Part shown: positions 40,373 to 55,915 of the stretch, one piece after another
How the letters are laid out: every line of letters begins with the position of its first letter
How positions within the stretch are numbered: position 1 is the stretch's first letter
From: Streptomyces clavuligerus
GTDB taxonomy: Bacteria; Actinomycetota; Actinomycetes; Streptomycetales; Streptomycetaceae
DNA length: 64,000 nucleotides
Assembly: GCF_005519465.1 (NCBI RefSeq)
Contig: NZ_CP027858.1
Span: 3,968,001-4,032,000, forward strand
Reading direction: 5' to 3'
Made by a program: the position numbers and the translations under genes
Notes under the pieces: generated by a model
Seen by the model: the letters and a program-made list of their open reading frames with translations, nothing else
Database searches by the model: none
Told to the model about the DNA's origin: nothing

Positions 40373-40499
40373 TTCCGGCAAACCTTCCGTATTACGGCAC
40401 CCATTACCGTATCTATCCCGCTCTCTGCGGACGAAGTTAACCGGAACATCATCTTCTCCCCCCGCTGTGCGGCTTCGATCACCGGATATTGTGCTGGAC

Positions 40500-41402: not shown

Positions 41403-41406
41403 CCTG

Positions 41407-42783
41407 GTGAGCAGCGCGATCTGGTCGGTGGACGACCACCTGGAGGACATCCTGGCGGCCATCAGGCCCCTTGACCCGATCGAGCTGCATCTGCTGGACG
41501 CGCAGGGCTGCGTCCTCGTCGAGGACGTCACCGTCCCCGTCGCCCTGCCGCCCTTCGACAACAGCTCCATGGACGGGTACGCGGTCCGCGTCGCCGATGT
41601 GCGGGGCGCGACCGAGGAGTTCCCCGCCGTCCTCACCGTCGTCGGCGATGTCGCCGCGGGCGGCGGATGGGCCCCGGCGGTCGGCCCCGGCCAGGCCGCG
41701 CGGATCATGACGGGCGCGCCGCTGCCGCCCGGCGCGGAGGCCGTCGTCCCGGTCGAGTGGACCGACGGCGGCACCGGGGGCGGCGCGGCCACCGCGATGC
41801 TGCCCGCCCAGGCGGCGCCCGAGGGGGCGAGCGGCGAGGTCCGCGTCCACCGCCCCGTCGACGAGGGCGCGTACATCCGGCCGCGCGGCAGCGATGTGAT
41901 GGCCGGTGACCTCGCCCTGGTCCGGGGCACGGTGCTCGGGCCGCCCCAGATCGGGCTGCTCGCCGCGATCGGCCGCGCCACCGTGCGGGTACGGCCCCGC
42001 CCCCGGGTCGTCGTCCTCTCCACCGGCTCCGAGCTGATGCAGCCCGGCGAGAGTCTGGCCGAGGGCCGGATCTACGACTCCAACAGCTACGCCCTCGCCG
42101 CCGCCGCGCGGGACGCGGGCGCGCTCGCCTACCGGGTCGGCGCGGTCACGGACGACGCGGACACCCTGCGCGCCACCATCGAGGACCAGCTCATCCGGGC
42201 CGATCTGCTGGTCACCACGGGCGGCGTCAGCGTCGGCGCGTACGACGTGGTCAAGGAGGCCCTGTCCGGGGTCGGCGAGCTGACGGCGGGTGAGCTGACG
42301 GCCGGTGGGCCGGACGCGGACGATCCGGCGGACGGTGCCCCGGGCGGGCCCGGCGCACAGCGCCCCGGGGGCGTGGTCGACTTCCGCACGATCGCGATGC
42401 AGCCGGGCAAGCCGCAGGGATTCGGCACCATCGGCCCCGACCACACCCCGCTGCTCGCGCTGCCGGGCAACCCGGTGTCGTCGTATGTCTCGTTCGAGTT
42501 GTTCGTCCGTCCGGCGATCCGGGCGCTGATGGGGCTGGAGGATCTGCACCGGCCCCGGGTGCGGGCCGAGCTGAAGGCGGACGGGCCGCTCTCCTCACCC
42601 CCGGGCAAACGGCAGTTCCTGCGCGGCCGGTACGACCCCGACAGCGGCACCGTCACCCCGGTGGGGGGCGCGGGCTCCCATCTGGTGGCGGCGCTCGCCC
42701 ACGCCGACTGCCTGCTCGTGGTGCCCGAGCACGACACGGCGCTCCAGCCCGGCGCCGGGGTGGACGTGGTCCTCCTCGGCTGA
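41407..42783 (+). CDS. glp: MoeA/gephyrin-like protein, probably the divisome protein Glp
   Basis: A 458-residue four-domain MoeA homologue. PPFDNSSMDGYAVRVADV is the signature, ARIMTGAPLPPGAEAVVPVE and YIRPRGSDV are in domains I-III, and STGSELMQPGESL with TTGGVSVGAYDVVKEAL forms the molybdopterin-binding domain. MoeA inserts molybdate into the cofactor. In Corynebacterium a MoeA-like protein named Glp instead binds FtsZ and a membrane receptor, GlpR, and its gene sits in the same neighbourhood as here (GNAT plus membrane protein downstream). A Pro/Gly/Ala insertion at ~290-325 is unusual. I prefer Glp by context; a true MoeA role cannot be excluded. Confidence 0.8.
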   Translation: MSSAIWSVDDHLEDILAAIRPLDPIELHLLDAQGCVLVEDVTVPVALPPFDNSSMDGYAVRVADVRGATEEFPAVLTVVGDVAAGGGWAPAVGPGQAARIMTGAPLPPGAEAVVPVEWTDGGTGGGAATAMLPAQAAPEGASGEVRVHRPVDEGAYIRPRGSDVMAGDLALVRGTVLGPPQIGLLAAIGRATVRVRPRPRVVVLSTGSELMQPGESLAEGRIYDSNSYALAAAARDAGALAYRVGAVTDDADTLRATIEDQLIRADLLVTTGGVSVGAYDVVKEALSGVGELTAGELTAGGPDADDPADGAPGGPGAQRPGGVVDFRTIAMQPGKPQGFGTIGPDHTPLLALPGNPVSSYVSFELFVRPAIRALMGLEDLHRPRVRAELKADGPLSSPPGKRQFLRGRYDPDSGTVTPVGGAGSHLVAALAHADCLLVVPEHDTALQPGAGVDVVLLG

Positions 42784-42864
42784 CCGGGGCCCGGGGAAGG
42801 TACCGTGTCTGCCCAGTTGGGCCCGGCGCGGGCCCGGACGGCCCGGACCGGGAGCGGCGACGAG

Positions 42865-43344
42865 ATGAACAGCGACAGCAGGCTGACGCACATCGACGAT
42901 GCGGGCGCGGCCCGTATGGTCGATGTCTCCCGGAAGGACGTCACCGTCCGCACCGCCCGGGCGAGCGGCCGGGTCCTGGTCTCCCCCCGGGTGGTGGAAC
43001 TCCTCCGGGGCGGGGGCGTCCCCAAGGGCGACGCGCTCGCGACCGCGCGGATCGCCGGGATCATGGGTGCCAAGCGCACCCCCGAGCTGATCCCGCTCTG
43101 CCATCCGCTGGCGATCTCCGGGGTGACGGTCGATCTGACGGTCGCGGACGACGCCGTGGAGCTGGCCGCGACGGTACGGACCACCGACCGCACCGGGGTG
43201 GAGATGGAGGCGCTGACCGCCGTCACCGTGGCCGCGCTGACCGTCGTCGACATGGTGAAGGCGGTGGACAAGGCCGCCGTGATCACCGAGGTGCGGGTGG
43301 AGGAGAAGACCGGCGGGAAGTCCGGCGACTGGAGCCGGGCATGA
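42865..43344 (+). CDS. moaC: Cyclic pyranopterin monophosphate synthase
   Basis: A 159-residue MoaC, close to the family length, that rearranges the product of MoaA to cyclic pyranopterin monophosphate. [20 protein letters not shown] opens it, [13 protein letters not shown] and [20 protein letters not shown] are the signatures, and the conserved lysines lie in [11 protein letters not shown] 42865 with GGAGCGG eight bases upstream is chosen over GTG 42805. Its stop overlaps the mog start (ATGA), so moaC and mog are translationally coupled. Confidence 0.95.
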
Positions 43345-44147
43345 GCGGGGACGGCACCGCCGAGGACCGCCCCCGGACGCAGGGTTCCGCCCAGGACCCG
43401 GCCCCGGACGGCCGGGGCACGGACGCCGACGGCGCCCCCGCGACGATCGGCGGCGACCGCGCGGCGGGCTCCGCCCCGGGTGCCGACGCGGGCCCCGGCC
43501 CGGGCCGAAGCCCCTTGACCGGTCCGCCCGGTCCGACCGGTCCGACCGGCGACGGCGCCCCGCGCGCGCTCGTGATCACCGCGTCCAACCGGGCGGCGGC
43601 CGGTGTGTACGCGGACCGGGGCGGCCCCCTCCTCGCCGAAGGGCTCGCGGCGCTCGGCTTCGCGGTGGACGGGCCGCTGGTCGTGCCCGACGGCGCCCCC
43701 GTCGAACAGGCCCTGCGGACCGGGGTGCGCGCGGGCTACGCCGTCATCCTCACCACCGGCGGCACCGGTGTCTCGCCCACCGACCGCACCCCCGAGGCCA
43801 CCCGTGCCGTGCTGGACCGCGAGATCCCCGGCATCCCCGAGGCCCTGCGCGCCCACGGCCGGGAGAAGGTGCCGACCGCCGTGCTCTCCCGCGGCCTCGC
43901 CGGGGTCGCGGACCGCACCCTGATCGTCAATCTGCCCGGCTCCACCGGGGGTGTGCGCGACGGTCTCGCCGTGCTCGGCCCGCTGCTGCCGCACACCGTG
44001 GACCAGCTCCGCGGCGGCGACCACCCGGCCCCGTCCGCCCCGTCCGCCTCCCCGACCCGGTCCTCCCCGTCCGGCCGGCCCACCTCGCCGACCCCGTCCG
44101 CACCCTCCCCCGGGGCCGCGCCGAGCACCGCCGGGGGCCCCCGCTGA
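43341..44147 (+). CDS. mog: Molybdopterin adenylyltransferase family (MogA/MoaB) with long disordered ends
   Basis: A 268-residue protein. The enzyme core, about residues 72-225, has [40 protein letters not shown] as the molybdopterin-binding signature, and [14 protein letters not shown]. Residues 1-70 and the last ~45 are Pro/Ala/Ser/Gly-rich and unlike the family. The enzyme adenylates molybdopterin before molybdate insertion by a MoeA-type protein, so its place with moaC and the MoeA-like gene makes sense. ATG 43341 overlaps the moaC stop. Confidence 0.88.
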
Positions 44148-44161
44148 ACGCGTCCTGGCCG

Positions 44162-44812
44162 GTGGTCCTGAGGGACGGCGACATCCTTCTCCGTCCCATA
44201 AAACTGCGCGACCAGCGCGACTGGCGCGAGGTCAACCGCCGCAACCGCGACTGGCTGCGCCCCTGGGAGGCGACCATTCCGCCGCCTGTCCCCGGCGCGC
44301 CCGCCGCCCGGCGGCCGACCTACCGCCAGATGGTCCGCCATCTGCGGACCGAGGCCAACGCCGGACGGATGCTCCCCTTCGTCATCGAGTACCGGGGCAG
44401 GCTGGTGGGTCAGCTCACCGTGGCGGGCATCACCTGGGGCTCCATGTGCTCGGGCCATGTCGGCTACTGGGTGGACCGCGAGGTCGCCGGACGAGGGGTG
44501 ATGCCGACCGCCGTCGCGCTCGCCGTCGACCACTGTTTCCACGCGGTCGGTCTGCACCGCATGGAGGTCTGCATCCGGCCGGAGAACGTCCCCAGCCGCC
44601 GGGTGGTGGAGAAGCTGGGGTTCCGCGAGGAGGGGCTGCGGCCCCGCTATCTCCATATCGACGGTGCCTGGCGGGACCACCTGGTCTTCGCCCTCACCGC
44701 CGAGGAGGCCGCCGACGGGCTCCTGCGCCGCTGGCACCGGGCCCGGCCGGGCGCGCACCACCCGGAAGAAGGCGCGCACCACCCGGAAGAGGGGGCCGAA
44801 GCCGGAAAATGA
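44162..44812 (+). CDS. GNAT acetyltransferase, RimJ/RimL type
   Basis: A 216-residue N-acetyltransferase of the ribosomal-protein-serine/alanine type. GDILLRPIKLRDQRDWREVN opens it, GHVGYWVDREVAGRGVMPTA covers the acetyl-CoA loop (RGVMPTA in place of RGxGxA), and CIRPENVPSRRVVEKLGFRE is the C-terminal signature. Its gene lies between mog and the sepX-like gene as in other actinobacteria. GTG 44162 is used; the family start [12 protein letters not shown] would need CTG 44144, which overlaps the mog stop (CTGA) and would couple translation. The tail has a 21-bp tandem duplication (HHPEEGA twice). Confidence 0.87.
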   Translation: MVLRDGDILLRPIKLRDQRDWREVNRRNRDWLRPWEATIPPPVPGAPAARRPTYRQMVRHLRTEANAGRMLPFVIEYRGRLVGQLTVAGITWGSMCSGHVGYWVDREVAGRGVMPTAVALAVDHCFHAVGLHRMEVCIRPENVPSRRVVEKLGFREEGLRPRYLHIDGAWRDHLVFALTAEEAADGLLRRWHRARPGAHHPEEGAHHPEEGAEAGK

Positions 44813-44951
44813 AACATGTGTTCGAATGCAAGCGCCGTCATCCATGTGCTGATCGCACCTATCAGAAAAAAGTCATTGATATGAGCGGGAACGTGCGACA
44901 CACCGGGCCAATTGGCGGATGCCGCCTTCAGAATCCCTCTACGGTGTGACC
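44813..44951 (+). promoter_or_regulatory. AT-rich upstream region of sepX-like gene
   Basis: A 139-bp gap of clearly lower GC than its surroundings (CTATCAGAAAAAAGTCATTG, 44859-44878). It likely carries a promoter of its own for the membrane protein gene. I cannot assign -10/-35 elements with confidence. Confidence 0.45.
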
Positions 44952-46085
44952 GTGAGCAGCAGCGGCCTCATCTACGCAGTCATCGTCGGGGCCTGGGCCG
45001 CCTACCTGGTGCCGATGTGGCTCCGCAGGCAGGACGAGTTGAACGAGGCTCGTCCGACGGAACGCTTCTCCACCGCCATCCGGCTGCTGTCGGGCCGCGG
45101 TGCGATGGAGCGCCGGTACGCCAAGGAGCTGCGCGAGCGCACCGCGGGGGAGGCCGGTCCCGCTGTGGACCCGGACGCCGTCACGGACCGCCTGAACGCG
45201 GTGGACGTCCGGCCCTTCGTCGCGCCCCGGGGCGAGGGCAGGCCGGAAGCGGCGGCGCGCCTCCAGGCACCGGCGGCCCAGGCGGCGGCCCCGGCACCCG
45301 CGGTCCCGTCGCCGGTGTCCCCGTCCCCGGCGGCCCCGTCGCCGGGCGCCCCGGCACCGGCACCGGCCGCGGTCCGGGCGCGCCGTCCGCGCCCCGGTGT
45401 CGCCGCCGAACGCGCCCGGCGCGGCAAGGTGCTGGCCCGGCGCAGACGGACCACCACCCTGCTGTTCCTGACGTTCACGCTCGGCTCGGTCGCCGCCGCG
45501 GTCGGCGGGCTCGGCTTCCTGTGGGCCCCGGCGGTCCCCGCCGTCCTCCTCAGCGCCTATATCGCCTATCTGCGCAAGCAGGAGCGCCAGCGCTTCGTCG
45601 TGGTGATGGACCGCCGCCGGGCCGAGGTCGCGGCCCAGCGGCTGCGCGAGCGGGGCCGCCGGCCCGCCCCGGCCCCCGGTGCCCCGGCCGAGCAGCTCGC
45701 CGAGCCCGAGGCCGTCCGCGCCGAGCCGGAGCCGCCCCCGCTCTCCCCGCAGACCGCCGACCGGCGGGCCCTGGTCGAGCAGACCGACCACGCGGAGTGG
45801 GTGGACCAGCAGCGGGCCTCGGGCCCGGCGTCCGGCGGTAGCTGGGACCCCGTCCCGGTGCCGCTGCCGACCTATGTCACCGCCCCGGTCGCCCCGCGCT
45901 CCACGGGCGGCGTCGACCTGAGCGACCCCGACACCTGGAGCTCCGCCCGGTCCTCCCCGGCGGACCCCGCCCCGGCCGACCAGGCCGCCGCCGCGCCGCC
46001 CCGGCGCACCACCCGCGAGCGCGGCCGGACCCCGCTGTTCGACCAGTACGCCGACGACGACCGGCCGCGGGCGGCCAACGAGTGA
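44952..46085 (+). CDS. sepX: SepX/GlpR-like divisome membrane protein
   Basis: A 377-residue protein. It begins SSSGLIYAVIVGAWAAYLVP (first membrane span) and then MWLRRQDELNEARPTERFST, which matches my memory of Streptomyces SepX. Two further spans, TLLFLTFTLGSVAAAVGGLG and AVPAVLLSAYIAYL, lie near residues 165-210. The linker before them and the ~150-residue C-terminal tail are Pro/Ala-rich. SepX is an actinobacterial membrane protein needed for cross-walls and sporulation septa and related to corynebacterial GlpR, the receptor for Glp. GTG 44952 is chosen by family. Its location downstream of glp and the GNAT gene supports the assignment. Confidence 0.85.
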   Translation: MSSSGLIYAVIVGAWAAYLVPMWLRRQDELNEARPTERFSTAIRLLSGRGAMERRYAKELRERTAGEAGPAVDPDAVTDRLNAVDVRPFVAPRGEGRPEAAARLQAPAAQAAAPAPAVPSPVSPSPAAPSPGAPAPAPAAVRARRPRPGVAAERARRGKVLARRRRTTTLLFLTFTLGSVAAAVGGLGFLWAPAVPAVLLSAYIAYLRKQERQRFVVVMDRRRAEVAAQRLRERGRRPAPAPGAPAEQLAEPEAVRAEPEPPPLSPQTADRRALVEQTDHAEWVDQQRASGPASGGSWDPVPVPLPTYVTAPVAPRSTGGVDLSDPDTWSSARSSPADPAPADQAAAAPPRRTTRERGRTPLFDQYADDDRPRAANE

Positions 46086-46190
46086 CCCCGGGGGCGGCCG
46101 TCTCGCGGCCGCCCTCCGGTCCCCCGTGACCAGCGCGGGAGCGGATTTCCGAGCAGCCCGATGGGGATGCTAGAGTTTCACTCGTTGCAA

Positions 46191-46264
46191 GGGCCTGTGG
46201 CGCAGTCCGGTAGCGCACCTCGTTCGCATCGAGGGGGCCAGGGGTTCAAATCCCCTCAGGTCCA
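46191..46264 (+). tRNA. tRNA-Ala (anticodon CGC)
   Basis: A complete cloverleaf: acceptor arm GGGCCTG/CAGGTCC with the G3:U70 pair that identifies alanine tRNAs, D stem GCGC/GCGC, anticodon arm CCTCG-TTCGCAT-CGAGG giving anticodon CGC, and T arm AGGGG-TTCAAAT-CCCCT. The CCA end is not encoded. No att-like duplication or integrase is nearby. Confidence 0.95.
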
Positions 46265-46270
46265 CCGCAA

Positions 46271-46311
46271 CGAAGACCCCGTACGATCATCGCGATCGTG
46301 CGGGGTCTTCG
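46271..46311 (+). terminator. Terminator after tRNA-Ala
   Basis: CGAAGACCCCGTACGATC (46271-46288) pairs with GATCGTGCGGGGTCTTCG (46294-46311), with one G-U pair and a 5-nt loop, starting 6 bp after the tRNA. Confidence 0.85.
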
Positions 46312-46889
46312 CTCTGTCCCGGCACTCTTCGCGCTGCCCGGACGACCGGCTTCGCGCTCGGGGCTCCGCGCGGGCGCCCGTCCGCTCCCGCGCGGGCCGG
46401 ACACCGGCCCGCGGACGGGCCTCCTCACCCCCTCCCGGCGGCGGCGCGGTCCCGGATCTCCGCGGGGGTGTTTCCGGCCGTCCTTCCGGGGCGGTGGATA
46501 TCCGTACTCCGATGGCGTCTTCGGCGCCGGGGGTCCCGCGCGGTCGCGCGGTTGTGCGCGGGGCGGACATCCGGAGGTCTCAATTCGGAGGCGGGGGCGG
46601 GAATTGCGTGCGGCCCGGAAATAGCCGATGCAAAAGAAGAAATGCGGCGCCGTTCCGGAAAAATGATCTGCACGATACCGAAAAACGCTTGAGGTGGGGA
46701 GGAAGGCAGCAGCGGGCCCCCGGGAGAATGGCCGATAAGCGTCCCCGGGCTCCGGGCCATTTCCGGCGCTGTTGTACGGCGGTGCAGTGCCCGGCGGACG
46801 GGGTCCCCCGGGCGGCCCGCCGGGGCCGGCACAGGCCGCCCCGGCCGGGCGGAGGCCGGGCGCGGGCCCGGTCCGGCCGGGCGTCCGGG
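46312..46889. other. Intergenic region between tRNA-Ala and the signal-cassette SDR
   Basis: About 580 bp without a credible gene. The part 46610-46700 is AT-richer than the rest (GCAAAAGAAGAAATGCGGCG, GGAAAAATGATCTGCACG), unlike its neighbours. No RNA, repeat or integration site is recognised. Confidence 0.4.
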
Positions 46890-47684
46890 CTAGCGGGCCG
46901 TCGAGCCGCCGTCGACCGGGAGGACCGCGCCCGTGACGAAGGAGGCGAGGTCGCTGAGGAGCCAGGCGGCGGCGTGGGCCACCTCCTCGGGCGCGGCGGC
47001 CCGCCCCTGGGGGACCTTCGCGCGCATCCGGGGCCCGGCCTGGGGGTCGCGGGCGAAGACGGCCTCGGTCATCTCCGACAGGGTCAGCCCGGTGGCCAGG
47101 GCGTTGACCCGGACACCGGCGTCGGCGTACTGGATCGCGGCCGACCGGGTCAGCCCCACTACCGCATGTTTTGACGCGATATAAGCGGGACCCATGGACG
47201 TCGCCCGTACACCGGCCGTACTGCTGTTGTTCACGATTGCGCCGCCCGAACCTGCTAGCAGGGCCGGAATCTCGTACCGCAGGCAATTCCACACGCCCCG
47301 CACATTGGTCTCCATGACGAGGTCGTAATCGGCGTCCTCGGTGGTGTGCAGCGGGGCGGCCGGGGTGACCGTCCCGGCGTTGTTGAAGGCTCCGTCGAGC
47401 CCGCCGTAACGGTCGACGCAGAGGTCCACGGCGCGGGCGACGGCGGCCGGGTCCCGGACGTCGCCCACCGCCGGATGGGCCTCGGCCCCGGTGGCCCGCA
47501 GGGTGCGGATCAGCGCGTCCAGCCGGTCCGCGCGCCGGGCGAGCAGCACCAGGCGGGCGCCCTGCGCGGCGAAGACGTGCGCCGCGGCGGCCCCGATACC
47601 GCTGCTGGCCCCGGTGACCAGCACTCTCTTCCCCGGCAGCAGCCCGCCCACCGGGGTGTCGGCGGCGCCGGACGAGCCGGTCAC
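46890..47684 (-). CDS. Short-chain dehydrogenase/reductase of a diffusible-signal cassette
   Basis: A 264-residue classical SDR. KRVLVTGASSGIGAAAAHVF is the NADP site, FNNAGTV carries the NAG motif, the catalytic Ser lies in VNNSSTAG, and AYIASKHAVVGL gives Tyr-x3-Lys. It ends FVTGAVLPVDGGSTAR. Start GTG 47684 overlaps the stop of the HAD gene by four bases (GTGA), so the two are translationally coupled. A ketoreductase is needed in gamma-butyrolactone synthesis (BarS1 in S. virginiae is an SDR), and with HAD and AfsA-like genes beside it this is the natural reading, though not proven. Confidence 0.85.
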   Translation of the reverse strand: MTGSSGAADTPVGGLLPGKRVLVTGASSGIGAAAAHVFAAQGARLVLLARRADRLDALIRTLRATGAEAHPAVGDVRDPAAVARAVDLCVDRYGGLDGAFNNAGTVTPAAPLHTTEDADYDLVMETNVRGVWNCLRYEIPALLAGSGGAIVNNSSTAGVRATSMGPAYIASKHAVVGLTRSAAIQYADAGVRVNALATGLTLSEMTEAVFARDPQAGPRMRAKVPQGRAAAPEEVAHAAAWLLSDLASFVTGAVLPVDGGSTAR

Positions 47685-48400
47685 CGCGCCCCGCCGCCGG
47701 GCGCGGGCTCCCAGAGGGTCCCCGCCGCCGCCTCCGCGTCCACCCGCCGGATCAGCTCCTCGTCGATCGACGCCACAGACGTCACCACATGCCTCACCCC
47801 CACCTCCCGCATCAACTCTGGCTGAAAGCCCTGCGGGAAGTCGCTCGGCGCGCCGATGAACGCGGTGCCGAGCCGCCGGGCCTCCTCCCCGACCCTGGCC
47901 ACGTCGTCGATGAAGAGCGCCCGCTCCGGGGCGAGTCCGAAGATGTCCTCGGCGATCTCCCGCAGCCCGGGGCGGAAGTCGTTCGTGCACACATAGCGAG
48001 GTTTGTCGAACAGCTCCGCCACTCGCCCGAGATGGCGCTCGAAGTGGGTGATGTCCAGCCCTCCGTAGCAGATCACGGGCAGGCCCAGCGCGCGCAGCCG
48101 CTCCAGCAGTTCTTCGGCGCCGTCCCGCATCCGTACCGGATGCTCCTTGAGGAACTCCTCACGTTCCCGCAGATAGCTGTCGATGGTGGCCGACGGGCTC
48201 GCCCCCGACCCCGTGACCTCGGCGAGCACCCGCCCGGCCACCAGCCGTGTCTGCGAGAAGACCCGGCGTTCCAACTCGGCGGTGTACAGACCGCCACGGC
48301 TCGTCACAAAGCGATGGATCATAGGACTGAACGTGTCGTTCAGCAGGACGCCGTCGATGTTGACGGCAGCGAGGCTCAGTCGGCTCAGTTCCTTGGACAA
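47681..48400 (-). CDS. HAD-family phosphatase of a diffusible-signal cassette
   Basis: A 239-residue HAD hydrolase. LAAVNIDGVLLNDTFSP replaces the usual DxDGT with an N-I-D-G version, so the first nucleophile Asp is replaced by Asn and only the second Asp is kept. RALGLPVICYGGLDI is in the motif II area, and RALFIDDVARVGEEARRLG is the acidic motif. HAD phosphatases accompany AfsA-like enzymes in several Streptomyces signal clusters (for example MmfP with MmfL), where a phosphate from dihydroxyacetone phosphate must be removed. TTG 48400 is chosen because homologous sequence begins SKELSRLSLAAVNIDG. It is divergent from the AfsA-like gene. Confidence 0.78.
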   Translation of the reverse strand: MSKELSRLSLAAVNIDGVLLNDTFSPMIHRFVTSRGGLYTAELERRVFSQTRLVAGRVLAEVTGSGASPSATIDSYLREREEFLKEHPVRMRDGAEELLERLRALGLPVICYGGLDITHFERHLGRVAELFDKPRYVCTNDFRPGLREIAEDIFGLAPERALFIDDVARVGEEARRLGTAFIGAPSDFPQGFQPELMREVGVRHVVTSVASIDEELIRRVDAEAAAGTLWEPAPGGGAR

Positions 48401-48688
48401 AACGTGTGTCCTATCCCTGCGGACCGGTTGGGGAGTTATTGACAGCGCGGATGACGGGCGCTGGTCGAACAGCAAGCCGTACGGGGACCAACAGCCCAGC
48501 CCGCCGAGGTAGGTGGTCGTTCCAATGACCTCGGTCCGGGGTAAATCACCGACGTTGACGTAAATGGCCGGTGGGCGCTCGTGATTCTGGCACCTTTACC
48601 GGATCTTTGCTAGGGCTTGAATAGCTCGGCTCAGTCTGTACGTTGAAGAGTGTCGCGTTCGCCGCAGTACGTTTCTTGTGGGAGGGAC
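48401..48688. promoter_or_regulatory. Divergent promoter region of signal cassette
   Basis: TTGAAT (48617-48622) and TACGTT (48639-48644), 16 bp apart, form a candidate promoter for the AfsA-like gene. ACCGGTTGG near 48422 matches the right half of the ARE element bound by butyrolactone receptors, but the left half is missing, so a receptor site is not established. Confidence 0.45.
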
Positions 48689-49657
48689 ATGACCATGCCG
48701 TTACGCCGGGAAAGCCTCGCCGTCGTCGATCGCCCCGTCGCGCACGGGCCGTTCACCACCACGGTTCCCCGGGAGTACGTCCACCGGGCGGCACTCGCCG
48801 AGGTGTTCCTCACCGGTATTCACCCCACGGGCCTCGACAGTCTCACGGTGACCGCCCAGTGGCCGCGCGCCCATACCTTCTACGGACCCACGGCCGGGGT
48901 CCACGACCCGCTGATGTTCATCGAGAGCCTGCGCCAGGCCGTGAACCTGATCACGCACACCGTCTACGCCGCGCCGATGGACCACCACCAGATCTGGCGC
49001 CACCTCAGCGTCGACCTCGACCGGGACGCGCTGTTCGTGGGGGACACCCCCGCCTCCATCGAGCTGGACATCCGCTGCGCCGACGTGGAGCGGCGCGGGA
49101 GCGCGCTGCGCGGGATGCGGATGGAGGTGACGGGCCGCCGGGACGGCCACTACCTCGGCAGCGCGGTCAGCAGCGTGACCTCCCTCCCGAGAACGGTGTA
49201 CCGCAGACTCAGAGGCCCCCACGCCGAGGTCTGGAAGGGCGCCACGAAGGCGCTGCCGCTGCCGCCGCCGGTGCCGCCCGCGCTGGTGGGGCGCTCGCGC
49301 CCCGAGGACGTCGTCCTCGCCCCGACCCGGGTCAGGGACCGCTGGCAACTGCGCGCGGACACCAGCCACCCGATTCTCTTCGACCATCCGCAGGACCACG
49401 CCCCGGGGATGCTGCTGCTGGAGGCGGCCCGGCAGGCCGCGCTGGCGGTCAGCCCGCCGGTGCCGGTCGTGCCGGTGGGGACCGAGGCGGTGTTCCACCG
49501 GTATGTGGAGCTGGACGACGACTGCTGGATCGAGGCGGTCCCGATCGCCCCGGACGCCCGGGGCGACAGCCGGACCCGGGTCGTCGCCCTCCAGCGGGAC
49601 GCATGCCTCTTCGAGTGCACCGTGACGACGGCGCCCGTGACCCCGCTGCCGTTCTAG
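48689..49657 (+). CDS. AfsA-family gamma-butyrolactone/butenolide synthase, TTA-containing
   Basis: A 322-residue protein with the two hotdog repeats of AfsA. Repeat 1 is HRAALAEVFLTG followed by PRAHTFYGPT and DPLMFIESLRQAVNLITHTV. Repeat 2 is HPILFDHPQDHAPGMLLLEA then ARQAAL. AfsA-type enzymes join a beta-ketoacyl thioester to dihydroxyacetone phosphate, the first step to A-factor-like signals. The start is ATG 48689 with GGAGGG just before; ATG 48695 is possible. The fifth codon is TTA (48701-48703), the only in-frame TTA I noticed in a recognised gene of the window, which would make translation depend on bldA tRNA. No receptor gene adjoins. Confidence 0.9.
   Translation: MTMPLRRESLAVVDRPVAHGPFTTTVPREYVHRAALAEVFLTGIHPTGLDSLTVTAQWPRAHTFYGPTAGVHDPLMFIESLRQAVNLITHTVYAAPMDHHQIWRHLSVDLDRDALFVGDTPASIELDIRCADVERRGSALRGMRMEVTGRRDGHYLGSAVSSVTSLPRTVYRRLRGPHAEVWKGATKALPLPPPVPPALVGRSRPEDVVLAPTRVRDRWQLRADTSHPILFDHPQDHAPGMLLLEAARQAALAVSPPVPVVPVGTEAVFHRYVELDDDCWIEAVPIAPDARGDSRTRVVALQRDACLFECTVTTAPVTPLPF
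48701..48703 (+). promoter_or_regulatory. TTA codon near the start of the AfsA-like gene
   Basis: The fifth codon (third from the alternative start) is TTA-Leu, read in Streptomyces only by the developmentally regulated bldA tRNA. Confidence 0.9.
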
Positions 49658-49834
49658 GGCGACAGGGACCGGACCCGCCCGGGAGGCCCCGGGGAGCCCC
49701 GCGAAAGCCGGGGCACACCCCGGATGCACCCCGGACGCCGTCCGGGCCGCCCGCCGCGCCTGGCCCTCGCCTGGACCGCGTCCGGGCTGCGCCTGGGCCG
49801 TGCCGCCGTGCGCGGGGGAGCTGGCCCGCGGCGA

Positions 49835-50332
49835 TCAGGTGAGCGGTTTCACATAGCAGCGGCTCGCGTCGTAGTGCCGGTAGTGGCCGAACTTCCGCAG
49901 CGCCGGTGCGTAGCCGCTGGAGGCGTACAGGGCGATCGCCTCGGGCTGCCGGTCCCCGGTCTCCAGGACCATCCGGGCCCGGCCCGCCGCGCGGGCGTCC
50001 TCCTCCAGCAGGGTGAGCAGCTTCCGCGCGTACCCCCGCCCCCGGGCCTCGGGGACCACATACATCCGCTTCAGCTCGGCGTCGCCGTCCGCGTACCCCT
50101 CCTCGCCCGCGCGCTGGGTCCGCCAGCCGCCGCTGGCCACGGGCCTGCCCTCCACGTCGTACACCAGCAGGAAGAGCCCGGTCGGCGGGGCGAAATGCGC
50201 GGGGTGGATCACGGTCGCGTCGCCGCCGTCCTCGTACCGCTCGTCGTACTCGCGCTGCACCCGCTCGTTGAGCAGGACGGCGTCCGGATGGTCGAAGGAG
50301 GTGGGGCGTATGTCCAGGGAACGGGTGTCCAT
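49835..50332 (-). CDS. GNAT-family N-acetyltransferase
   Basis: A 165-residue acetyltransferase. GLFLLVYDVEGRPVASGGWR is strand beta2-3, ELKRMYVVPEARGRGYARKL holds the acetyl-CoA-binding R/Q-x-x-G-x-G/A motif, and MVLETGDRQPEAIALYASSG is the C-terminal signature. It resembles single-domain GNATs acting on small molecules or protein N-termini. ATG 50332 is the start. It is divergent from the exonuclease III gene with a 76-bp gap and convergent with the AfsA-like gene. Substrate unknown. Confidence 0.87.
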   Translation of the reverse strand: MDTRSLDIRPTSFDHPDAVLLNERVQREYDERYEDGGDATVIHPAHFAPPTGLFLLVYDVEGRPVASGGWRTQRAGEEGYADGDAELKRMYVVPEARGRGYARKLLTLLEEDARAAGRARMVLETGDRQPEAIALYASSGYAPALRKFGHYRHYDASRCYVKPLT

Positions 50333-50408
50333 GGTCAGAGGGTACGGGTGCACGAAATGTGGTGGTACGGAATAGGGCCGGGCGGGCCGTCCCGGGTAAA
50401 GTGCCTGG

Positions 50409-51260
50409 ATGCTCACCGTGACCTCCGTGAATGTCAATGGGCTCCGTGCCGCCGCGAAGAAGGGCTTCGTGGAGTGGCTCGCGGGCGCCGCCGCCGATGT
50501 GATCTGCCTCCAGGAGGTCCGGGCGGAGCCGGAGCAGCTTCCGGAGGGGGTGCGGCGGCCCGAGGGGTGGTTCACGGCGCACGCCCCGGCCGGGGCCAAG
50601 GGCCGCGCGGGCGTCTCCCTCTACACCCGCCGGGAGCCGGACGAGGTGCGCGTCGGATTCGGCGTCCCCGAGTTCGCGCACAGCGGCCGGTACATCGAGG
50701 CCGATCTGCCCGGGGTGACCGTGGCCAGCCTCTACCTTCCCTCCGGTGAGGTGGGGACGGAGCGCCAGGACGAGAAGTACCGCTTCATGGACGCTTTTCT
50801 GCCGTATCTGAGCGAGCTGCGGGCCCGCTCGGCGGCGGCCGGGCGGGAGGTCGTCGTCTGCGGCGACTGGAACATCGCCCATCACGAGGCCGACCTCAAG
50901 AACTGGCGCGGCAACAAGAAGAACGCCGGATTCCTGCCGGAGGAGCGCGCCTGGCTCTCCCGGGTCCTCGACGGCGGCGACGGAGGCGAGGGCGACCAGG
51001 GCGGCGAGGGCGGCGACAGTGCCGGATATGCCGGATATGTGGATGTCGTGCGCGCGCTCCACCCCGATCAGGAGGGCCCCTACACCTGGTGGTCCTACCG
51101 GGGCCGCGCCTTCGACAACGACAGCGGCTGGCGCATCGACCTCCAGGCGGCGACGCCGTCCCTCGCGGCCCGCGCGGTCAAGGGGTACGTGGAGCGCGCG
51201 GCCACCCATGAGGAGCGCTGGAGCGACCACGCGCCCGTGACCGTCGTCTACGAGCTGTAG
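50409..51260 (+). CDS. xth: Exodeoxyribonuclease III / AP endonuclease
   Basis: A 283-residue EEP-family nuclease for base-excision repair. TVTSVNVNGLRAAAKKG has the first metal Asn, DVICLQEVRAEP the metal Glu, SGRYIEADLPGVTVASLYLP the tyrosine region, VCGDWNIAHHEADLKN the catalytic Asp-Asn pair, YTWWSYRGRAFDNDSGWRID and RWSDHAPVTVVY the final Asp-His. A short Gly/Asp/Glu insertion (~200-212) with a repeated AGYAGY lies in a surface loop. The protein is complete and was probably acquired vertically, as GC use matches its neighbours. Confidence 0.95.
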   Translation: MLTVTSVNVNGLRAAAKKGFVEWLAGAAADVICLQEVRAEPEQLPEGVRRPEGWFTAHAPAGAKGRAGVSLYTRREPDEVRVGFGVPEFAHSGRYIEADLPGVTVASLYLPSGEVGTERQDEKYRFMDAFLPYLSELRARSAAAGREVVVCGDWNIAHHEADLKNWRGNKKNAGFLPEERAWLSRVLDGGDGGEGDQGGEGGDSAGYAGYVDVVRALHPDQEGPYTWWSYRGRAFDNDSGWRIDLQAATPSLAARAVKGYVERAATHEERWSDHAPVTVVYEL

Positions 51261-51314
51261 CCCGGTCGCGGCACACGGCATGCGGCGTGCGCGCCCCGTG
51301 GCGCGGCGCGCGGC

Positions 51315-52079
51315 TCAGGGGGTGCGCCGGTGGTCCTGGACCTCGCGCGGCCCCGGCACGTCCCGTCGCCGCGACACCTCCCGGGCCCGTGGCATCTCGT
51401 GGCGCCCCCGGGCGTCCCGGCACTCCGCCGCCGGTTCATGGGGCTGCCGCAGCCGCCGGTCCAGCGCCATCGACAGCTCCGCCTCGACGACGCTCCTCGC
51501 GAGGGGCCGCAGCCGGTCCGCGTCCCCGTCCGGGACATGGGTCCGCAGCACGCCGACGAACAGCTCCGCCAGCGCGTCCGCGTGCGTCCGCACCCGCCGT
51601 CCGGCGTCCAGCACCGTCGCCAGCGGCACCCCTTCCCGTACCAGCGCCGCCGACACATCGAGCAGCCGTCGGCTGATGTGCACGATCTCGCCGCCGTCGG
51701 TGGCCAGATAGCCGAGGTCGAGCGCGGTCGCCAGATTCTCCGGGGTGACCTCGCCCGCGAAGTGGTCGGCCAGGTCCTCGGGGGTGAGCCGGACCGGGGT
51801 CTCCTCGCTCGGCTCGCCCAGGCCCAGCACCTCGCCCACGTCCCGCCCGCTCTCGAACGCCTTGGCGAGATCGGCGATTCCGTTCAGGGTGTGGCCCCGT
51901 TCGAGCAGCGCGGAGATCGTCCGCAGCCGGGCCAGATGGTGGTCGCCGTACCAGGCGATCCGGCCCTGTCGGCGGGGCGGGGCCAGCAGTCCGCGCTCGC
52001 GGTAGAAGCGCACGGTGCGCACCGTGACGCCGGCCCGGTCGGCCAGCTCCTCCATGCGGTATTCGCGTCCTTCTGCCAC
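51315..52079 (-). CDS. MerR-family transcriptional regulator
   Basis: A 254-residue regulator. The MerR helix-turn-helix is MEELADRAGVTVRTVRFYRE, with wing GRIAWYGDHHLARLRTIS and the dimer helix near residues 75-115. The C-terminal ~140 residues are an unassigned helical domain ending in an Arg/Glu-rich tail. No cysteine cluster for metal sensing is visible, so an organic ligand is more likely. Start GTG 52079; ATG at residue 9 is possible. It is divergent from the monooxygenase operon with a 187-bp gap that holds inverted repeats, so it is the obvious candidate controller of that operon. Confidence 0.87.
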   Translation of the reverse strand: MAEGREYRMEELADRAGVTVRTVRFYRERGLLAPPRRQGRIAWYGDHHLARLRTISALLERGHTLNGIADLAKAFESGRDVGEVLGLGEPSEETPVRLTPEDLADHFAGEVTPENLATALDLGYLATDGGEIVHISRRLLDVSAALVREGVPLATVLDAGRRVRTHADALAELFVGVLRTHVPDGDADRLRPLARSVVEAELSMALDRRLRQPHEPAAECRDARGRHEMPRAREVSRRRDVPGPREVQDHRRTP

Positions 52080-52203
52080 GGGTAAAGCCTATGTTGTCGG
52101 GTGGGTAACTTGGCGGGTCCTCCCTCTACCGCTGGGTATCTCCGCTGCTCTACCCTCCCATTGCGCCAGTGATTGCTGGCATGGTCCAGCGTTCTGGACC
52201 CGG

Positions 52204-52241
52204 TTGTGACGTTCCGTGGGAACGTCCCGTTTGTGACGTTC
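52204..52241. promoter_or_regulatory. Palindrome and direct repeats upstream of monooxygenase operon
   Basis: GACGTTCC-GTG-GGAACGTC (52208-52226) is a perfect 8-3-8 palindrome. TTGTGACGTT occurs at 52204-52213 and again at 52231-52240, 27 bp apart. They lie just upstream of the ribosome site of the operon and are probable operators, perhaps for the divergent MerR protein. Confidence 0.55.
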
Positions 52242-52266
52242 AGTGGTGGCGTTCGGTGGAGGCGGC

Positions 52267-53865
52267 ATGAGCCGGCAACGACATGAGCAACAGCACGGAC
52301 AGAAACACCAGCGGAAGCAGGAACGGCAGTACGAGGACGAACGGGAGTCCGCACAACGGACCCATGTCCGCGTCGCCGTCATCGGCGCCGGCTTCGGCGG
52401 CATCGGCGCGGCGGTACGGCTGCGCCGCGAGGGCATCACCGACTTCGTCGTCCTGGAGCGCGCCGACTCCGTGGGCGGCACCTGGCGCGACAACACCTAC
52501 CCCGGCTGCGCCTGCGATGTGCCGTCCCACCTCTACTCCTTCTCCTTCGCCCCCAACCCCGACTGGCCGCGCACCTTCTCCGGCCAGGAGCACATCCGCG
52601 CCTATCTGGAGCATGTGACGGACGTCTTCCGCGTCCGCCCCCATCTGCGGCTGGGCCATGAGGTGCGCCGGATGGCCTGGGACCCCGACGCGCTCCACTG
52701 GACCGTCGAGACCAGCGGGGGCGTGTTCACGGCGGACGTGGTCGTCTCCGCGGCCGGTCCGCTCTCCGACCCCAAGGTCCCCGACATCCCCGGTATCGAC
52801 GGCTTCCCGGGCGAGGTCTTCCACACCTCCCGTTGGAACCACGGCCTCGATCTGCGCGGCAAGCGGGTCGCCGTGGTCGGCACGGGCGCCTCCGCGATCC
52901 AGATCGTCCCCGCGATCCAGCCGCGGGCCGAGCGGCTGACCCTCTTCCAGCGGACCCCGCCATGGGTGATGCCCCGGATGGACCGGCGGATCAGCGACGC
53001 CGAGCGCTGGCTCCACCGGCAGTTCCCCGCCACCGGGACGCTGCGCCGCGGTCTGCTCTGGGGCGTGCGCGAAATCCAGGTCTCCGCCTTCACCAGGCAG
53101 CCCGCCCGGCTCGTGCCGGTCGAGGCGCTGGCCCGTCTCCATCTGGCCAGGTCCATCAAGGACCCCGGGCTGCGCGCCAGGCTGACCCCCTCGTACCGCA
53201 TCGGCTGCAAGCGCATCCTGCTGTCCAGCGACTACTACCCCACGCTCACCCGGCCCAATGTCACCGTGGTGTCCTCGGCCCTGAGCGAGGTCAGGGGCTC
53301 GACGCTGATCGCGGCGGACGGCACGCAGAGCGAGGCCGACGTGCTCGTCTTCGGCACGGGCTTCCGCGTCACCGACGTGCCCATCGCGGAACGGGTCGTC
53401 GACGGGGACGGGCGCACGCTCGCCGAAGCCTGGGAGAAGGACGGGATGCAGTCCCTGCGCGGGGCGACCACCGCCGGGTTCCCCAACTGGATGACGGTCA
53501 TCGGCCCCAACACCGGCCTGGGGAACTCCTCGATGATCCTCATGATCGAGTCCCATCTGAACTACATGGCCGACTATCTGCGGCAGTTGACCGTGCTCGG
53601 CCGCGGCACCGCGCTCGCCGTGCGCCCGGCGGCCCAGGCCGCCTGGAACCGGAAGGTGCAGGCGAGGATGGAGCGCACCGTGTGGAACAGCGGTGGCTGC
53701 ACGAGCTGGTACCTCGACGCACAGGGCCGCAACACCACCATCTGGCCGGGCAGCACCGGCGAGTTCCGCAGGCTGACCCGCGAGGTCGATCTGGCCGAGT
53801 ACGACATCCTCCGCGCCCGCGTCCGGGCGGACGCCTCCGTTCCGGCCGTGGAGGCCGCGCGATGA
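52267..53865 (+). CDS. Flavin-containing Baeyer-Villiger-type monooxygenase
   Basis: A 532-residue FAD/NADPH monooxygenase. The first Rossmann motif VAVIGAGFGGIGAAVRL is near residue 40, WRDNTYPGCACDVPSHLYSF follows, FPGEVFHTSRWN at residues ~180-191 is the BVMO fingerprint FxGxxxHxxxW with Asn in the last place, and VAVVGTGASAIQI at ~205 is the NADPH site. It oxidises ketones to esters or related substrates with O2. The first ~35 residues are Gln/His/Arg-rich and extra to the family. ATG 52267 has GGAGG before it. It overlaps the hydrolase gene by four bases. Gene order resembles mycobacterial mymA-lipR-sadH. Confidence 0.9.
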   Translation: MSRQRHEQQHGQKHQRKQERQYEDERESAQRTHVRVAVIGAGFGGIGAAVRLRREGITDFVVLERADSVGGTWRDNTYPGCACDVPSHLYSFSFAPNPDWPRTFSGQEHIRAYLEHVTDVFRVRPHLRLGHEVRRMAWDPDALHWTVETSGGVFTADVVVSAAGPLSDPKVPDIPGIDGFPGEVFHTSRWNHGLDLRGKRVAVVGTGASAIQIVPAIQPRAERLTLFQRTPPWVMPRMDRRISDAERWLHRQFPATGTLRRGLLWGVREIQVSAFTRQPARLVPVEALARLHLARSIKDPGLRARLTPSYRIGCKRILLSSDYYPTLTRPNVTVVSSALSEVRGSTLIAADGTQSEADVLVFGTGFRVTDVPIAERVVDGDGRTLAEAWEKDGMQSLRGATTAGFPNWMTVIGPNTGLGNSSMILMIESHLNYMADYLRQLTVLGRGTALAVRPAAQAAWNRKVQARMERTVWNSGGCTSWYLDAQGRNTTIWPGSTGEFRRLTREVDLAEYDILRARVRADASVPAVEAAR

Positions 53866-55028
53866 GCGCCCAAACAGGCCCCCGGCCGGGCCCTCGGACG
53901 GGCGCCCGGACGGGCGCCGGGCCGGTGGGACGGACAGAGCGAACAGAGCGGACAGAGCAGATGGAACAGCGGGAACGGGCAGGGCTCATGGGGCAGGCAG
54001 GGCGTGCGGGACGGGAGTGGCGGGACGATCTGTCCCCGGCGGGCGGGCTCGACCACCGCACCCTCTACGCCGTCTCCGCCGACGGCTCCCGGATACACAC
54101 GCAGGTCTACGGCCCCGACGGCGCGCCCGCGGTCGTCCTGGTCCATGGCTGGACCTGCTCGACGGAGTTCTGGCGCGAGCAGATACGGGAGCTGTCGGCG
54201 GACTGCCGGGTCGTCGTCTACGACCAGCGCGGTCACGGCCGCAGCCCCGCCGGACCCACCGGGCCCGGCATCCTCGCCGACGATCTGGAGGCCGTGCTCA
54301 CCGCCGTGCTCGAACCCGGCGAACCCGCCGTGATCGCCGGGCACTCCATGGGCGGGATGACCGTGATGGCCTCCTCCCGCCGGGCCGCGTTCAACGGCCA
54401 CGCCGCCGCCGTGCTGCTGCTCAGCACCGGCAGCTCCCGTCTGGTCGAGGAGGCCCTGGTGTTCCCGGGGCGGCGCACACCGCTGCGGGAGCGCCTCACC
54501 CTCGCGCTCCTCGGCTCCACGGTCCCGATGGGGCCGGTCAACCCGGTCTCCCGGCGGCTGCTCCGCTACGCCACGATGGCCCGGACCTCGGCCCCGGAGC
54601 AGGTCGCCGCGTGCGCCCGGATCGTGCGGGCGTGCCCGCCCCGGGTGCGGGCCGCCTGGGCCCGGGTGCTGGCGGAGCTGGACCTCGACATGGAGGTCCG
54701 CGCGCTGCACGTGCCCACCGTCGTGGCGGTGGGCACGGAGGACCGGCTCACCCCGATGGTGCACGCCCGGCGGCTCGCCGCGACGCTGCCCGAATGCGTG
54801 GAGCTGGTGGAGATCTCCGGGGCGGGCCATATGACCCCGGTGGAGACACCGTTGACCGTCAGCTCCCTCGTCCGGGGGCTCGTCCGCGACCACCTTCCCG
54901 TTCCCCGGGACACGGGTACGGGCGCGCCCGCGGACACCGGTACGGACCTGGGCACGGGCACGGAGATCGGCGCGGAGATCGGTACCGGGATGGGCACGGA
55001 CACGGGCGAACGGGAGAGGGCCGTATGA
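53862..55028 (+). CDS. Alpha/beta hydrolase (LipR-like position)
   Basis: A 388-residue hydrolase. About 65 Arg/Gly/Glu-rich residues precede the fold. VLVHGWTCSTEFWREQ holds the oxyanion region, VVYDQRGHGRS is typical, AGHSMGGMTVMA carries nucleophile Ser162, VGTEDRLTP the Asp, and ISGAGHMTPVE the His. The last ~35 residues are a degenerate Gly-Thr-Asp repeat. It overlaps the monooxygenase and the SDR genes by four bases each (ATGA), so all three are translationally coupled. A hydrolase after a Baeyer-Villiger enzyme could open the ester made. It corresponds in place to lipR of the mymA operon. Confidence 0.88.
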   Translation: MSAQTGPRPGPRTGARTGAGPVGRTERTERTEQMEQRERAGLMGQAGRAGREWRDDLSPAGGLDHRTLYAVSADGSRIHTQVYGPDGAPAVVLVHGWTCSTEFWREQIRELSADCRVVVYDQRGHGRSPAGPTGPGILADDLEAVLTAVLEPGEPAVIAGHSMGGMTVMASSRRAAFNGHAAAVLLLSTGSSRLVEEALVFPGRRTPLRERLTLALLGSTVPMGPVNPVSRRLLRYATMARTSAPEQVAACARIVRACPPRVRAAWARVLAELDLDMEVRALHVPTVVAVGTEDRLTPMVHARRLAATLPECVELVEISGAGHMTPVETPLTVSSLVRGLVRDHLPVPRDTGTGAPADTGTDLGTGTEIGAEIGTGMGTDTGERERAV

Positions 55029-55915
55029 GCAGGGTGGGTCTGGACGGGCAGGTCGTCGTGGTCACCGGCGCGGCGCGGGGCCTCGGGGAGCTGATGGCCC
55101 GCAAGCTCTCCGCGCGCGGCGCGCGGCTGGCGCTGGTGGGGCTGGAGGCCGACGAGCTGAAGCGGGTCGCCGCCCGGCTGCACGGCGACGCCGAGTGGTG
55201 GCATGCCGACGTCACCGATCACGAGGTGATGACCCGGGTCGCGGCGGAGGTCAAGGAGCGGTTCGGCAAGGTCGACACCGTCGTCGCCAACGCGGGTGTC
55301 GCGACCGGCGGGGCCTTCGCCGGGTCCGACCCGGTCGCCTGGCGGCGGGTGATCGAGGTCAACCTCATCGGCAGCGCGGTCACGGCCCGCGCCTTCCTCC
55401 CGGCGCTCACGGCGAGCCGGGGCTATCTGCTCCAGATCGCCTCGCTCGCCGCGATCTCCTCGATGCCGCTGATGACGGCCTACTGCGCCTCCAAGTCGGG
55501 TGTCGAGGCGTTCGCCCACGGGCTGCGCGCGGAGGTCGGCCACCAAGGGGTGCGGGTCGGTGTGGCGTATCTGTCCTGGACCGACACGGACATGGTGCGC
55601 GGAGTCGACCAGCACGCGGTCCTGGCCGAGCTGCGGCGGCGGCTGCCCTGGCCCATCGGCCGGACCTATCCCATCGGGCCGACCACGGACCGGCTGGTCG
55701 CGGGGATAGAGCGGCGTGCCGCGCATGTCTACGGGCAGCCGTGGGTGCGGGCGATGCAGCCGCTGCGGGGCGCGGTGCCGGGACTGGTCGCCCGTGCCTC
55801 ACGGCGGGAGATGCGGTCCTTCGCCCCGAAGCTGGCGGAGCTGGGCCCTGACCCGGGCCGCCTCGTCGGCGCGGGCGGCGAGGCGGACGAGGCGGCGCGG
55901 GGCACCACGGCCTGA
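55025..55915 (+). CDS. Short-chain dehydrogenase (third gene of mymA-like operon)
   Basis: A 296-residue SDR. VVVTGAARGLGELMARKLSA is the cofactor site, TVVANAGVATGG the NAG motif, LLQIASLAAI the Ser strand, and TAYCASKSGVEAF gives Tyr-x3-Lys. The C-terminal ~100 residues, including RTYPIGPTTDRLV and YGQPWVRAMQPLRG, extend past the core as in the SadH/Rv3085 group. It probably interconverts an alcohol and the ketone used by the monooxygenase. ATG 55025 overlaps the hydrolase stop. No further gene follows on this strand; adhD/fadD13-like genes of the mycobacterial operon are absent here. Confidence 0.88.
   Translation: MSRVGLDGQVVVVTGAARGLGELMARKLSARGARLALVGLEADELKRVAARLHGDAEWWHADVTDHEVMTRVAAEVKERFGKVDTVVANAGVATGGAFAGSDPVAWRRVIEVNLIGSAVTARAFLPALTASRGYLLQIASLAAISSMPLMTAYCASKSGVEAFAHGLRAEVGHQGVRVGVAYLSWTDTDMVRGVDQHAVLAELRRRLPWPIGRTYPIGPTTDRLVAGIERRAAHVYGQPWVRAMQPLRGAVPGLVARASRREMRSFAPKLAELGPDPGRLVGAGGEADEAARGTTA

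Follow-up and report, generated by a model that had tools for sequence, protein, structure and literature searches.

A putative butenolide-type hormone cassette without the usual receptor gene, beside a tRNA-Ala gene of Streptomyces clavuligerus

The stretch of DNA analysed here (the window, 64,000 nucleotides of the Streptomyces clavuligerus chromosome) contains at positions 46890-49657 three genes that look like a small kit for the production of a diffusible butenolide-type hormone without the usual receptor gene: an AfsA/ScbA-type synthase gene on the plus strand, and HAD and SDR genes that run divergently on the minus strand. On balance, the trio is probably a minimal cassette that was acquired beside tRNA-Ala and makes a diffusible SRB/SAB-type butenolide; its HAD protein would not be a normal phosphatase, and its signal would either lack a cognate receptor or be read by a receptor of another class (Brp). 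If so, S. clavuligerus, the producer of clavulanic acid, has a butenolide synthase cassette without a receptor of the cassette's own class.

The gene trio and its insertion site

The features of the locus are as follows (window coordinates).

48689..49657, plus strand: AfsA/ScbA/BarX-type double-hotdog synthase, 322 aa (NF041195 and PF03756 matches)
48401..48688, no strand: divergent promoter region with weak autoregulatory-element-like sites
47681..48400, minus strand: HAD-fold protein with motif I NIDGV, assigned to the SrrP family by synteny (motif reading, homolog alignment)
46890..47684, minus strand: SDR-family ketoreductase (PF13561, 195.7 bits; TGASSGIG and YIASK motifs by reading)
46314..49831, no strand: insertion of about 3.5 kb holding the trio (blastn against relatives with an empty site)
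46191..46266, plus strand: tRNA-Ala (CGC) gene at the insertion edge, with sepX on one side and xth on the other in four of the five relatives examined

The initial annotation had the synthase gene run from 48401 to 49657. Its end is the stop codon found here, but 48401-48688 is the divergent intergenic region and the coding sequence most likely begins at ATG 48689, with a GTG at 48650 as a possible start further upstream. The encoded protein scores 343.7 bits against NCBIfam NF041195 (ScbA_BarX_GamBu; cut-off 200) and 138.4 bits against the Pfam family AfsA (PF03756), the latter in two stretches that represent the two hotdog halves. Residues E79, R82, Q83, R173, R175, R222, H233, D236, H237, E245, and Q249 are the same in every row of an alignment of the query with the 120 homologs listed out of 1773 (121 rows). 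Judged by these comparisons, the protein belongs to the AfsA/ScbA/BarX gamma-butyrolactone synthase family, as had been proposed, and not outside AfsA. The other NF041195 matches of S. clavuligerus comprise one over the cut-off (C1:6105777, 211.3 bits), one of 141.6 bits, and one on the plasmid of 36.6 bits. The gene avaA2/SCLAV_0471, a target of CagR (PMC6382702), was considered as the synthase gene of the window and dropped; by position alone, it would be the AfsA gene near C1:6.1 Mb.

The SDR gene (47684-46890, minus strand) starts with a GTG inside the stop codon of the HAD gene, and the two genes share the four-base overlap (GTGA) that had been described initially. All three frames are open, and the GC content at third positions is high (AfsA 0.94, HAD 0.88, SDR 0.91). 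These properties bear on the view that the cassette is a decaying relic, silent and drifting after loss of its receptor. Although the missing receptor and the weak autoregulatory element in the promoter would agree with such decay, it appears very unlikely given the open frames, the high third-position GC, the intact conserved AfsA residues, and the nearest relative, NPDC000594, which has close homologs of AfsA (87%) and the HAD protein (77%), apparently on the same contig.

The genes for SepX, tRNA-Ala (CGC), xth, MerR, and a flavin monooxygenase recur together in relatives, and the trio interrupts this arrangement. In one relative (L195), the blastn match extends to window position 46313 and resumes from 49832 with 44 bases in between, and in another (L196) it breaks off at 46265 and continues from 49855, the two parts being 75 bases apart; the site is thus empty in two of the five relatives examined. 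By this gap, the trio lies within an insertion of about 3.5 kb between tRNA-Ala and the conserved GNAT-xth block. In a third relative (L197), about 1.2 kb at the site are unmatched, and the stretch fetched from a fourth (L199) contains neither the tRNA nor SepX. The expectation of conserved synteny of the cassette with tRNA-Ala failed, since no tRNA-Ala was found at any of the 17 cassette loci scanned in relatives and the empty sites mark the location as an insertion point. An integration scar in the form of a directly repeated tRNA end was sought and discarded (the longest exact match within 40000-56000 is 11 bases), as was a foreign base composition, for which the GC content gives no signal (0.722 in the insertion versus 0.746 and 0.728 in the flanks). 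In other observations on this region, tRNA-Ala and xth are about 5.5 kb apart at the corresponding place in another Streptomyces (L198:10107-15575), so that this location may be variable. The flavin monooxygenase at window 52243-53865 is PtlE-like (Baeyer-Villiger; 201.8 bits against a cut-off of 1100), and genes for MerR and xth stand near it in each of the five relatives.

The composition of the cassette was compared at the best 80 of 131 HAD loci confirmed in a scan of named genomes, counting neighbours within 5 kb of the HAD gene at thresholds of at least 100 bits for AfsA and at least 80 bits for ScbR-family proteins, with true and pseudo-receptors pooled. An AfsA gene is present at 73 of these 80 loci, a ScbR-family gene at 70, and a same-strand SDR gene directly behind the HAD gene at 54; as the same neighbours recur at most of the loci, the arrangement of the trio is beyond chance. 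Among the 62 loci that extend for 5 kb or more in each direction, the corresponding numbers are 58, 57, and 45, and AfsA occurs together with a ScbR-family regulator within 5 kb at 54, which bears out the initial remark that the absence of a receptor gene is unusual. The first ten listed loci (L036-L045) share an order in which AfsA diverges from HAD, SDR, and ScbR-family genes that follow each other in one direction, with the exception of L037, where the contig ends after the HAD gene. Among 121 surveyed Streptomyces genomes, 17 have the HAD protein; 16 of these have the Asn type described below, and G105 has solely an Asp type. An 18th match (E 9.3e-4) was left uncounted. All 17 of the HAD-positive genomes have a NF041195 match (E <=0.001), and such a match is also present in 85 of the remaining 104 genomes. 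The HAD protein was hence not met without AfsA in this survey, and most AfsA-positive genomes lack it. Conservation of the HAD/SDR pair without AfsA, named at the outset as evidence against a hormone cassette, is not observed (0/17), and the proposal of a hormone-type biosynthetic cassette gains support. The HAD protein is also encoded in 19 plasmid records, all of them from Streptomyces.

A HAD protein with asparagine at the nucleophile position

The HAD gene (48400-47681, minus strand) starts with TTG and encodes 239 aa, the same length as an identical database protein (P0004), and this start agrees with the MSEELSRL start of a 77% homolog (P0005). The product scores 22.7 bits against the Pfam family Hydrolase (PF00702), under the cut-off of 26.4. 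Its motif I reads N-I-D-G-V, in which Asn, residue 15 in the numbering of P0001 and 14 in that of the 239-aa protein, takes the place of the nucleophile. Apart from the nucleophile, HAD phosphatases are marked by an Asp two residues further on (Asp+2), Ser/Thr in motif II, Lys/Arg in motif III, and an acidic pair in motif IV. In an alignment of the query with the 120 homologs listed out of 534, one of which is the query's own database copy, all 121 rows have Asn at this position, and the nucleophilic Asp of HAD phosphatases is absent from each. D17 (Asp+2), the Tyr113-Gly-Gly sequence, R144, and the motif IV pair D166 and D167 are invariant in these rows, and position 112 (motif II) is Cys in 118 and Ser in three, i.e., mostly non-canonical. 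The Asn pointed out in the initial annotation is thus real, but the alignment marks it as a family-wide trait and not as an anomaly of the S. clavuligerus gene. Similarly, the HAD fold stands, whereas the label "phosphatase" seems doubtful for a protein without the nucleophilic Asp. An enzyme that is repeatedly annotated as a phosphatase would lack the phosphatase nucleophile in every listed relative, and an open biosynthetic step would thereby be brought within reach of a one-enzyme assay.

Among 100 rows derived from loci (the query, 80 named loci, and 19 from the genome survey, with some genomes in both), Asn is found in 98 and Asp in two (L032 and L035; 46% and 43% identity). The Asp-type proteins belong to another cluster type (L122 and L123) that comprises an AfsA-like gene (186.5 bits in L122, under the cut-off of 200), FabH, FabF (both identified by eye in L123), HAD, and aldo-keto reductase genes. 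Streptomyces coeruleorubidus (L106) also has AfsA, FabH, FabF, and aldo-keto reductase genes, but with an Asn-type HAD, and without a ScbR-family gene within 5 kb of it. Both Asp and Asn HADs therefore occur naturally near AfsA. These clusters (L106:6027-14301, L122:3807-9418, and L123:3877-10555) provide a natural Asp/Asn comparison. A second HAD-like protein (L106:10878-11558; 22.7 bits to PF00702, below the cut-off) is encoded directly behind the Asn-type HAD of L106 as a tandem pair.

The route to the product would begin with the reaction known for the AfsA family, in which a beta-keto acyl thioester and dihydroxyacetone phosphate give a 2-acyl-3-(phosphooxymethyl)butenolide. The SrrP-family HAD would bind the phosphate without an Asp nucleophile and would most likely help to convert the CH2-O-phosphate and the ring CH2 into CH3 and CH(OH), and the SDR would reduce the C1' ketone of the side chain, by analogy with SrrG/SabD. 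The product would then be a 2-alkyl-4-hydroxy-3-methylbutenolide and not a classical gamma-butyrolactone. The step from the phosphorylated butenolide to the 4-hydroxy-3-methylbutenolide has been called still to be elucidated, with mention of a rearrangement and dephosphorylation (PMC7756379).

It is tempting to speculate that HADs of the SrrP/SabP family are phosphate lyases or isomerases and not phosphatases, although this proposal is a tentative one. With Asn in place of Asp, no phospho-enzyme would be formed; with the phosphate and Mg site in use, the second Asp, as a general base, would deprotonate the ring, C-O cleavage would expel the phosphate, and addition of water would result in the 4-hydroxy-3-methyl pattern. 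The change from CH2-O-P and ring CH2 to CH3 and CH(OH) involves no net redox, as elimination plus hydration would give, whereas simple P-O hydrolysis would retain a CH2OH group. A HAD fold with a phosphate and metal site and no nucleophilic Asp would suit the elimination route. This idea was not met in the mainly open-access literature surveyed, in searches not directed at lyases or elimination. If true, it would supply the step described as unsolved (PMC7756379), and the presence of the HAD gene in a genome would distinguish butenolide from gamma-butyrolactone signals. A strict rule by which Asp goes with a retained CH2OH and Asn with a methyl group agrees with the MmfP-like HAD described below, but L122/L123 and L106 mix Asp and Asn in similar neighbourhoods; the rule was rejected in its strict form and kept as a hypothesis.

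Two other roles for the HAD protein have to be weighed. It may be a pseudo-enzyme that serves AfsA as a phosphate-binding partner or carrier, with dephosphorylation occurring spontaneously, as drawn in one scheme (PMC7564063), or by general phosphatases. The Asn that is invariant among the listed homologs and the Pfam score under the cut-off would be in keeping with this, but the invariance of Asp17, Arg144, Asp166, and Asp167, together with Cys/Ser at position 112, exceeds the needs of a bare binding protein, and SabP, likened to the HAD by its description, is stated to be required for SAB formation (PMC7756379), which makes a pseudo-enzyme unlikely. Alternatively, the trio may be a classical gamma-butyrolactone cassette in which AfsA forms the phosphobutenolide, the HAD hydrolyses the phosphate despite its Asn, and the SDR finishes the lactone. 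The score against the ScbA/BarX equivalog and the naming of SrrP and SabP as phosphatases (PMC7564063, PMC6930871, PMC7756379) speak for it; nevertheless, we regard it as quite unlikely, given the missing nucleophile in all 121 rows of listed homologs, the synteny with SRB-type loci, and the 85 AfsA-positive genomes of 121 that have no HAD, from which it follows that AfsA systems in general do not need one.

The missing receptor and the place of Brp

The genome of S. clavuligerus consists of two contigs (6,748,591 and 1,795,495 bases), the second of which is the plasmid pSCL4, as indicated by a 3.57-kb stretch (L008) with a 100% match to S. clavuligerus plasmids including pSCL4. On the chromosome contig, no ScbR-family gene exceeds the cut-off of 150 bits (the best scores 69.3), which is consistent with the original statement that no receptor is adjacent to the trio. 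A receptor pseudogene behind the SDR gene was considered and rejected: in a comparison of 107 ScbR-family proteins with 46267-46889, the best match is 19.2 bits, with E 0.044 or worse, and weak receptor matches in the wider window fall inside galU and glp. Two proteins of pSCL4 exceed the cut-off, C2:952406 (192.7 bits) and C2:948919 (153.5 bits). From its score and place, the former would be brp (SCLAV_p0894), which has been named "the only butyrolactone-receptor protein" of S. clavuligerus (PMC5702194; PMC3992018). The latter (C2:948919-949488; L117:2975-3592) is a second ScbR-family protein 3 kb from Brp, which groups in the tree with pseudo-receptor-like rows on long branches; the literature just cited mentions one receptor.

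A tree of 101 receptors places Brp, with a support of 100/100, in a clade of 25 members that is separate from the receptors of HAD cassettes; the other members are ten listed database homologs of Brp and 14 rows that come from 13 loci. An acyl-CoA oxidase and a P450 lie near the Brp homolog at 12 of the 13 loci (two of the oxidases being partial matches), L174 having neither, and at 15 of the 16 Brp-clade loci fetched (three of the oxidases being Pfam-confirmed). By descent, Brp thus appears to belong with receptors linked to acyl-CoA oxidases (avenolide type) and not with cassette-type receptors, and if this is true, the search for the Brp ligand turns away from gamma-butyrolactones. The idea that Brp is the relocated receptor of the cassette had drawn on a first tree, which held only receptors of HAD loci and of pSCL4 and in which Brp stood beside the cassette receptors (99/91); it was abandoned, as the addition of receptors of oxidase loci shifted Brp into the clade of the latter. 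An avenolide-type acyl-CoA oxidase (57% identity) is encoded on the chromosome at C1:4519920-4521668 (L180:8675-10672), and neither a receptor nor a P450 was found beside it. In the genome of S. clavuligerus, the oxidase and the receptor of the avenolide type are therefore separate both from each other and from the butenolide cassette.

The promoters were compared by means of a palindromic motif of the autoregulatory-element kind, derived without prior input from 23 relatives with directly divergent AfsA and HAD genes. A first matrix gives 2.3 bits for the cassette promoter of S. clavuligerus (p 0.37 in shuffles). Under a stricter matrix, leave-one-out scores are at least 12.9 bits in 17 of the 23 relatives and below 9 in six, some of the promoter regions being cut at matched protein ends; the S. 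clavuligerus cassette has one site, good in its left half, that scores 8.1 bits (p 0.07 relative to shuffled bases), and the brp promoter scores 12.7 bits (0/500 shuffles). The promoters of the oxidase gene and of the other ScbR-family gene on the plasmid score 6.0 bits (p 0.18) and 2.6 bits (p 0.13), respectively. These scores suggest that the autoregulatory element may have been lost from the cassette promoter.

A pairing in trans has to be considered at this point, by which Brp (ScaR), encoded on the megaplasmid pSCL4, would sense the signal of the cassette and control ccaR and clavulanic acid. Both ScbR-family proteins over the cut-off are on the plasmid and just one of the two clusters with genuine receptors, Brp has been described as the only such receptor (PMC5702194), and the nearest relative, NPDC000594, has close homologs of Brp as well as of the cassette, with those of AfsA and HAD assigned to a contig of length 249,324 and that of Brp (88%) to another of length 73,800. 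Such a pairing nonetheless seems rather doubtful, because Brp falls in the 100/100 clade, of which nearly all fetched loci are linked to an acyl-CoA oxidase and a P450; such an oxidase is present in S. clavuligerus itself, and a significant autoregulatory element is found in the promoter of brp but not in that of the cassette. The absence of the receptor is best described as a loss, or as a part never acquired, at the insertion site that is not made good by Brp as a receptor of the same type. The cassette would thus have been inserted beside tRNA-Ala with its usual linked receptor absent, and, as a receptor of the same type was not found in the genome, its molecule would have no cognate receptor or be read by another signalling class (Brp).

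Comparison with known systems

The initial annotation had left the signal type open among gamma-butyrolactones, butenolides, and furans; the associations described here point to butenolides of the SRB/SAB type and away from the other two. The methylenomycin furan system (mmfL-mmfH-mmfP) also has an AfsA-type synthase and a HAD beside receptors. In a plasmid of Streptomyces anthocyanicus (L126), the HAD in the place of mmfP, between an MmfH-like gene and the MmyR gene (WP_011039548), has the canonical sequence DVDET and belongs to another HAD subfamily (PF12710), and furans of the MmfP pathway keep the hydroxymethyl group (PMC7756379). The contrast with this HAD, which has Asp and goes with a retained CH2OH, fits the Asn hypothesis as a single case of families that are not close homologs. 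GlaP of the gladiofungin system has been described as a HAD family phosphatase (PMC10574677).

The avenolide system (aco-cyp17-avaR1; clustering reported in PMC5575351) also concerns a butenolide hormone, and the Brp clade is linked to genes of this kind. Avenolide is made by an acyl-CoA oxidase and not by AfsA, and the oxidase gene of S. clavuligerus has no receptor or P450 gene found beside it.

The SRB loci are closer to the trio. In Streptomyces rochei, where SRB genes are borne by pSLA2-L, the genes are arranged in the order srrH, srrX, srrO, srrP, srrA, srrG .. srrB (PMC7564063), and the plasmid pSGRIFU1 of Streptomyces griseofuscus has the same order, with genes for an alpha/beta hydrolase, ScbA/BarX, P450, HAD (annotated as hypothetical), ScbR, and SDR, followed at a distance by ScbR. 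Streptomyces cellostaticus DSM 40189 (L047) shares the order of pSGRIFU1 from the AfsA gene onward, and strain NBRC12849 of this species makes SRBs (PMC12301235). The HADs of S. griseofuscus and S. cellostaticus in the srrP position belong to the family of the S. clavuligerus HAD and have Asn. By contrast, the SRB loci carry a P450 (SrrO position) and linked receptors, both missing from the trio, and their SDR is on the opposite strand and a remote relative of that of S. clavuligerus (51.7 bits).

The reading as an SRB/SAB-type cassette draws on the ScbA/BarX score, the association of HAD with AfsA, the synteny with srr, the likeness to the sab trio, the empty site, and the receptor census with the Brp clade. 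Against it, the Asn-type HAD is also present in the L106-type cluster and Asp in the similar L122/L123, so that the HAD does not correspond one-to-one with a product class; the P450 of the SRB loci is absent and their SDR remote; the membership in the SrrP/SabP family follows from synteny and description; and the product is a prediction from the genes. The trio comprises the AfsA, SrrP-family HAD (by synteny), and dehydrogenase that characterize SRB/SAB-type systems. Streptomyces ansochromogenes, which has the receptors SabR1/SabR2 where the trio has no linked receptor, provides the nearest counterpart: its sabA-sabP-sabD genes encode an AfsA-like enzyme, a "phosphatase" (SabP, likened by description), and a dehydrogenase, as does the trio of S. 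clavuligerus, and expression of sabA, sabP, and sabD leads to the SAB butenolides SAB1-3 (PMC6930871), with both SabP and SabD being required for SAB formation (PMC7756379).
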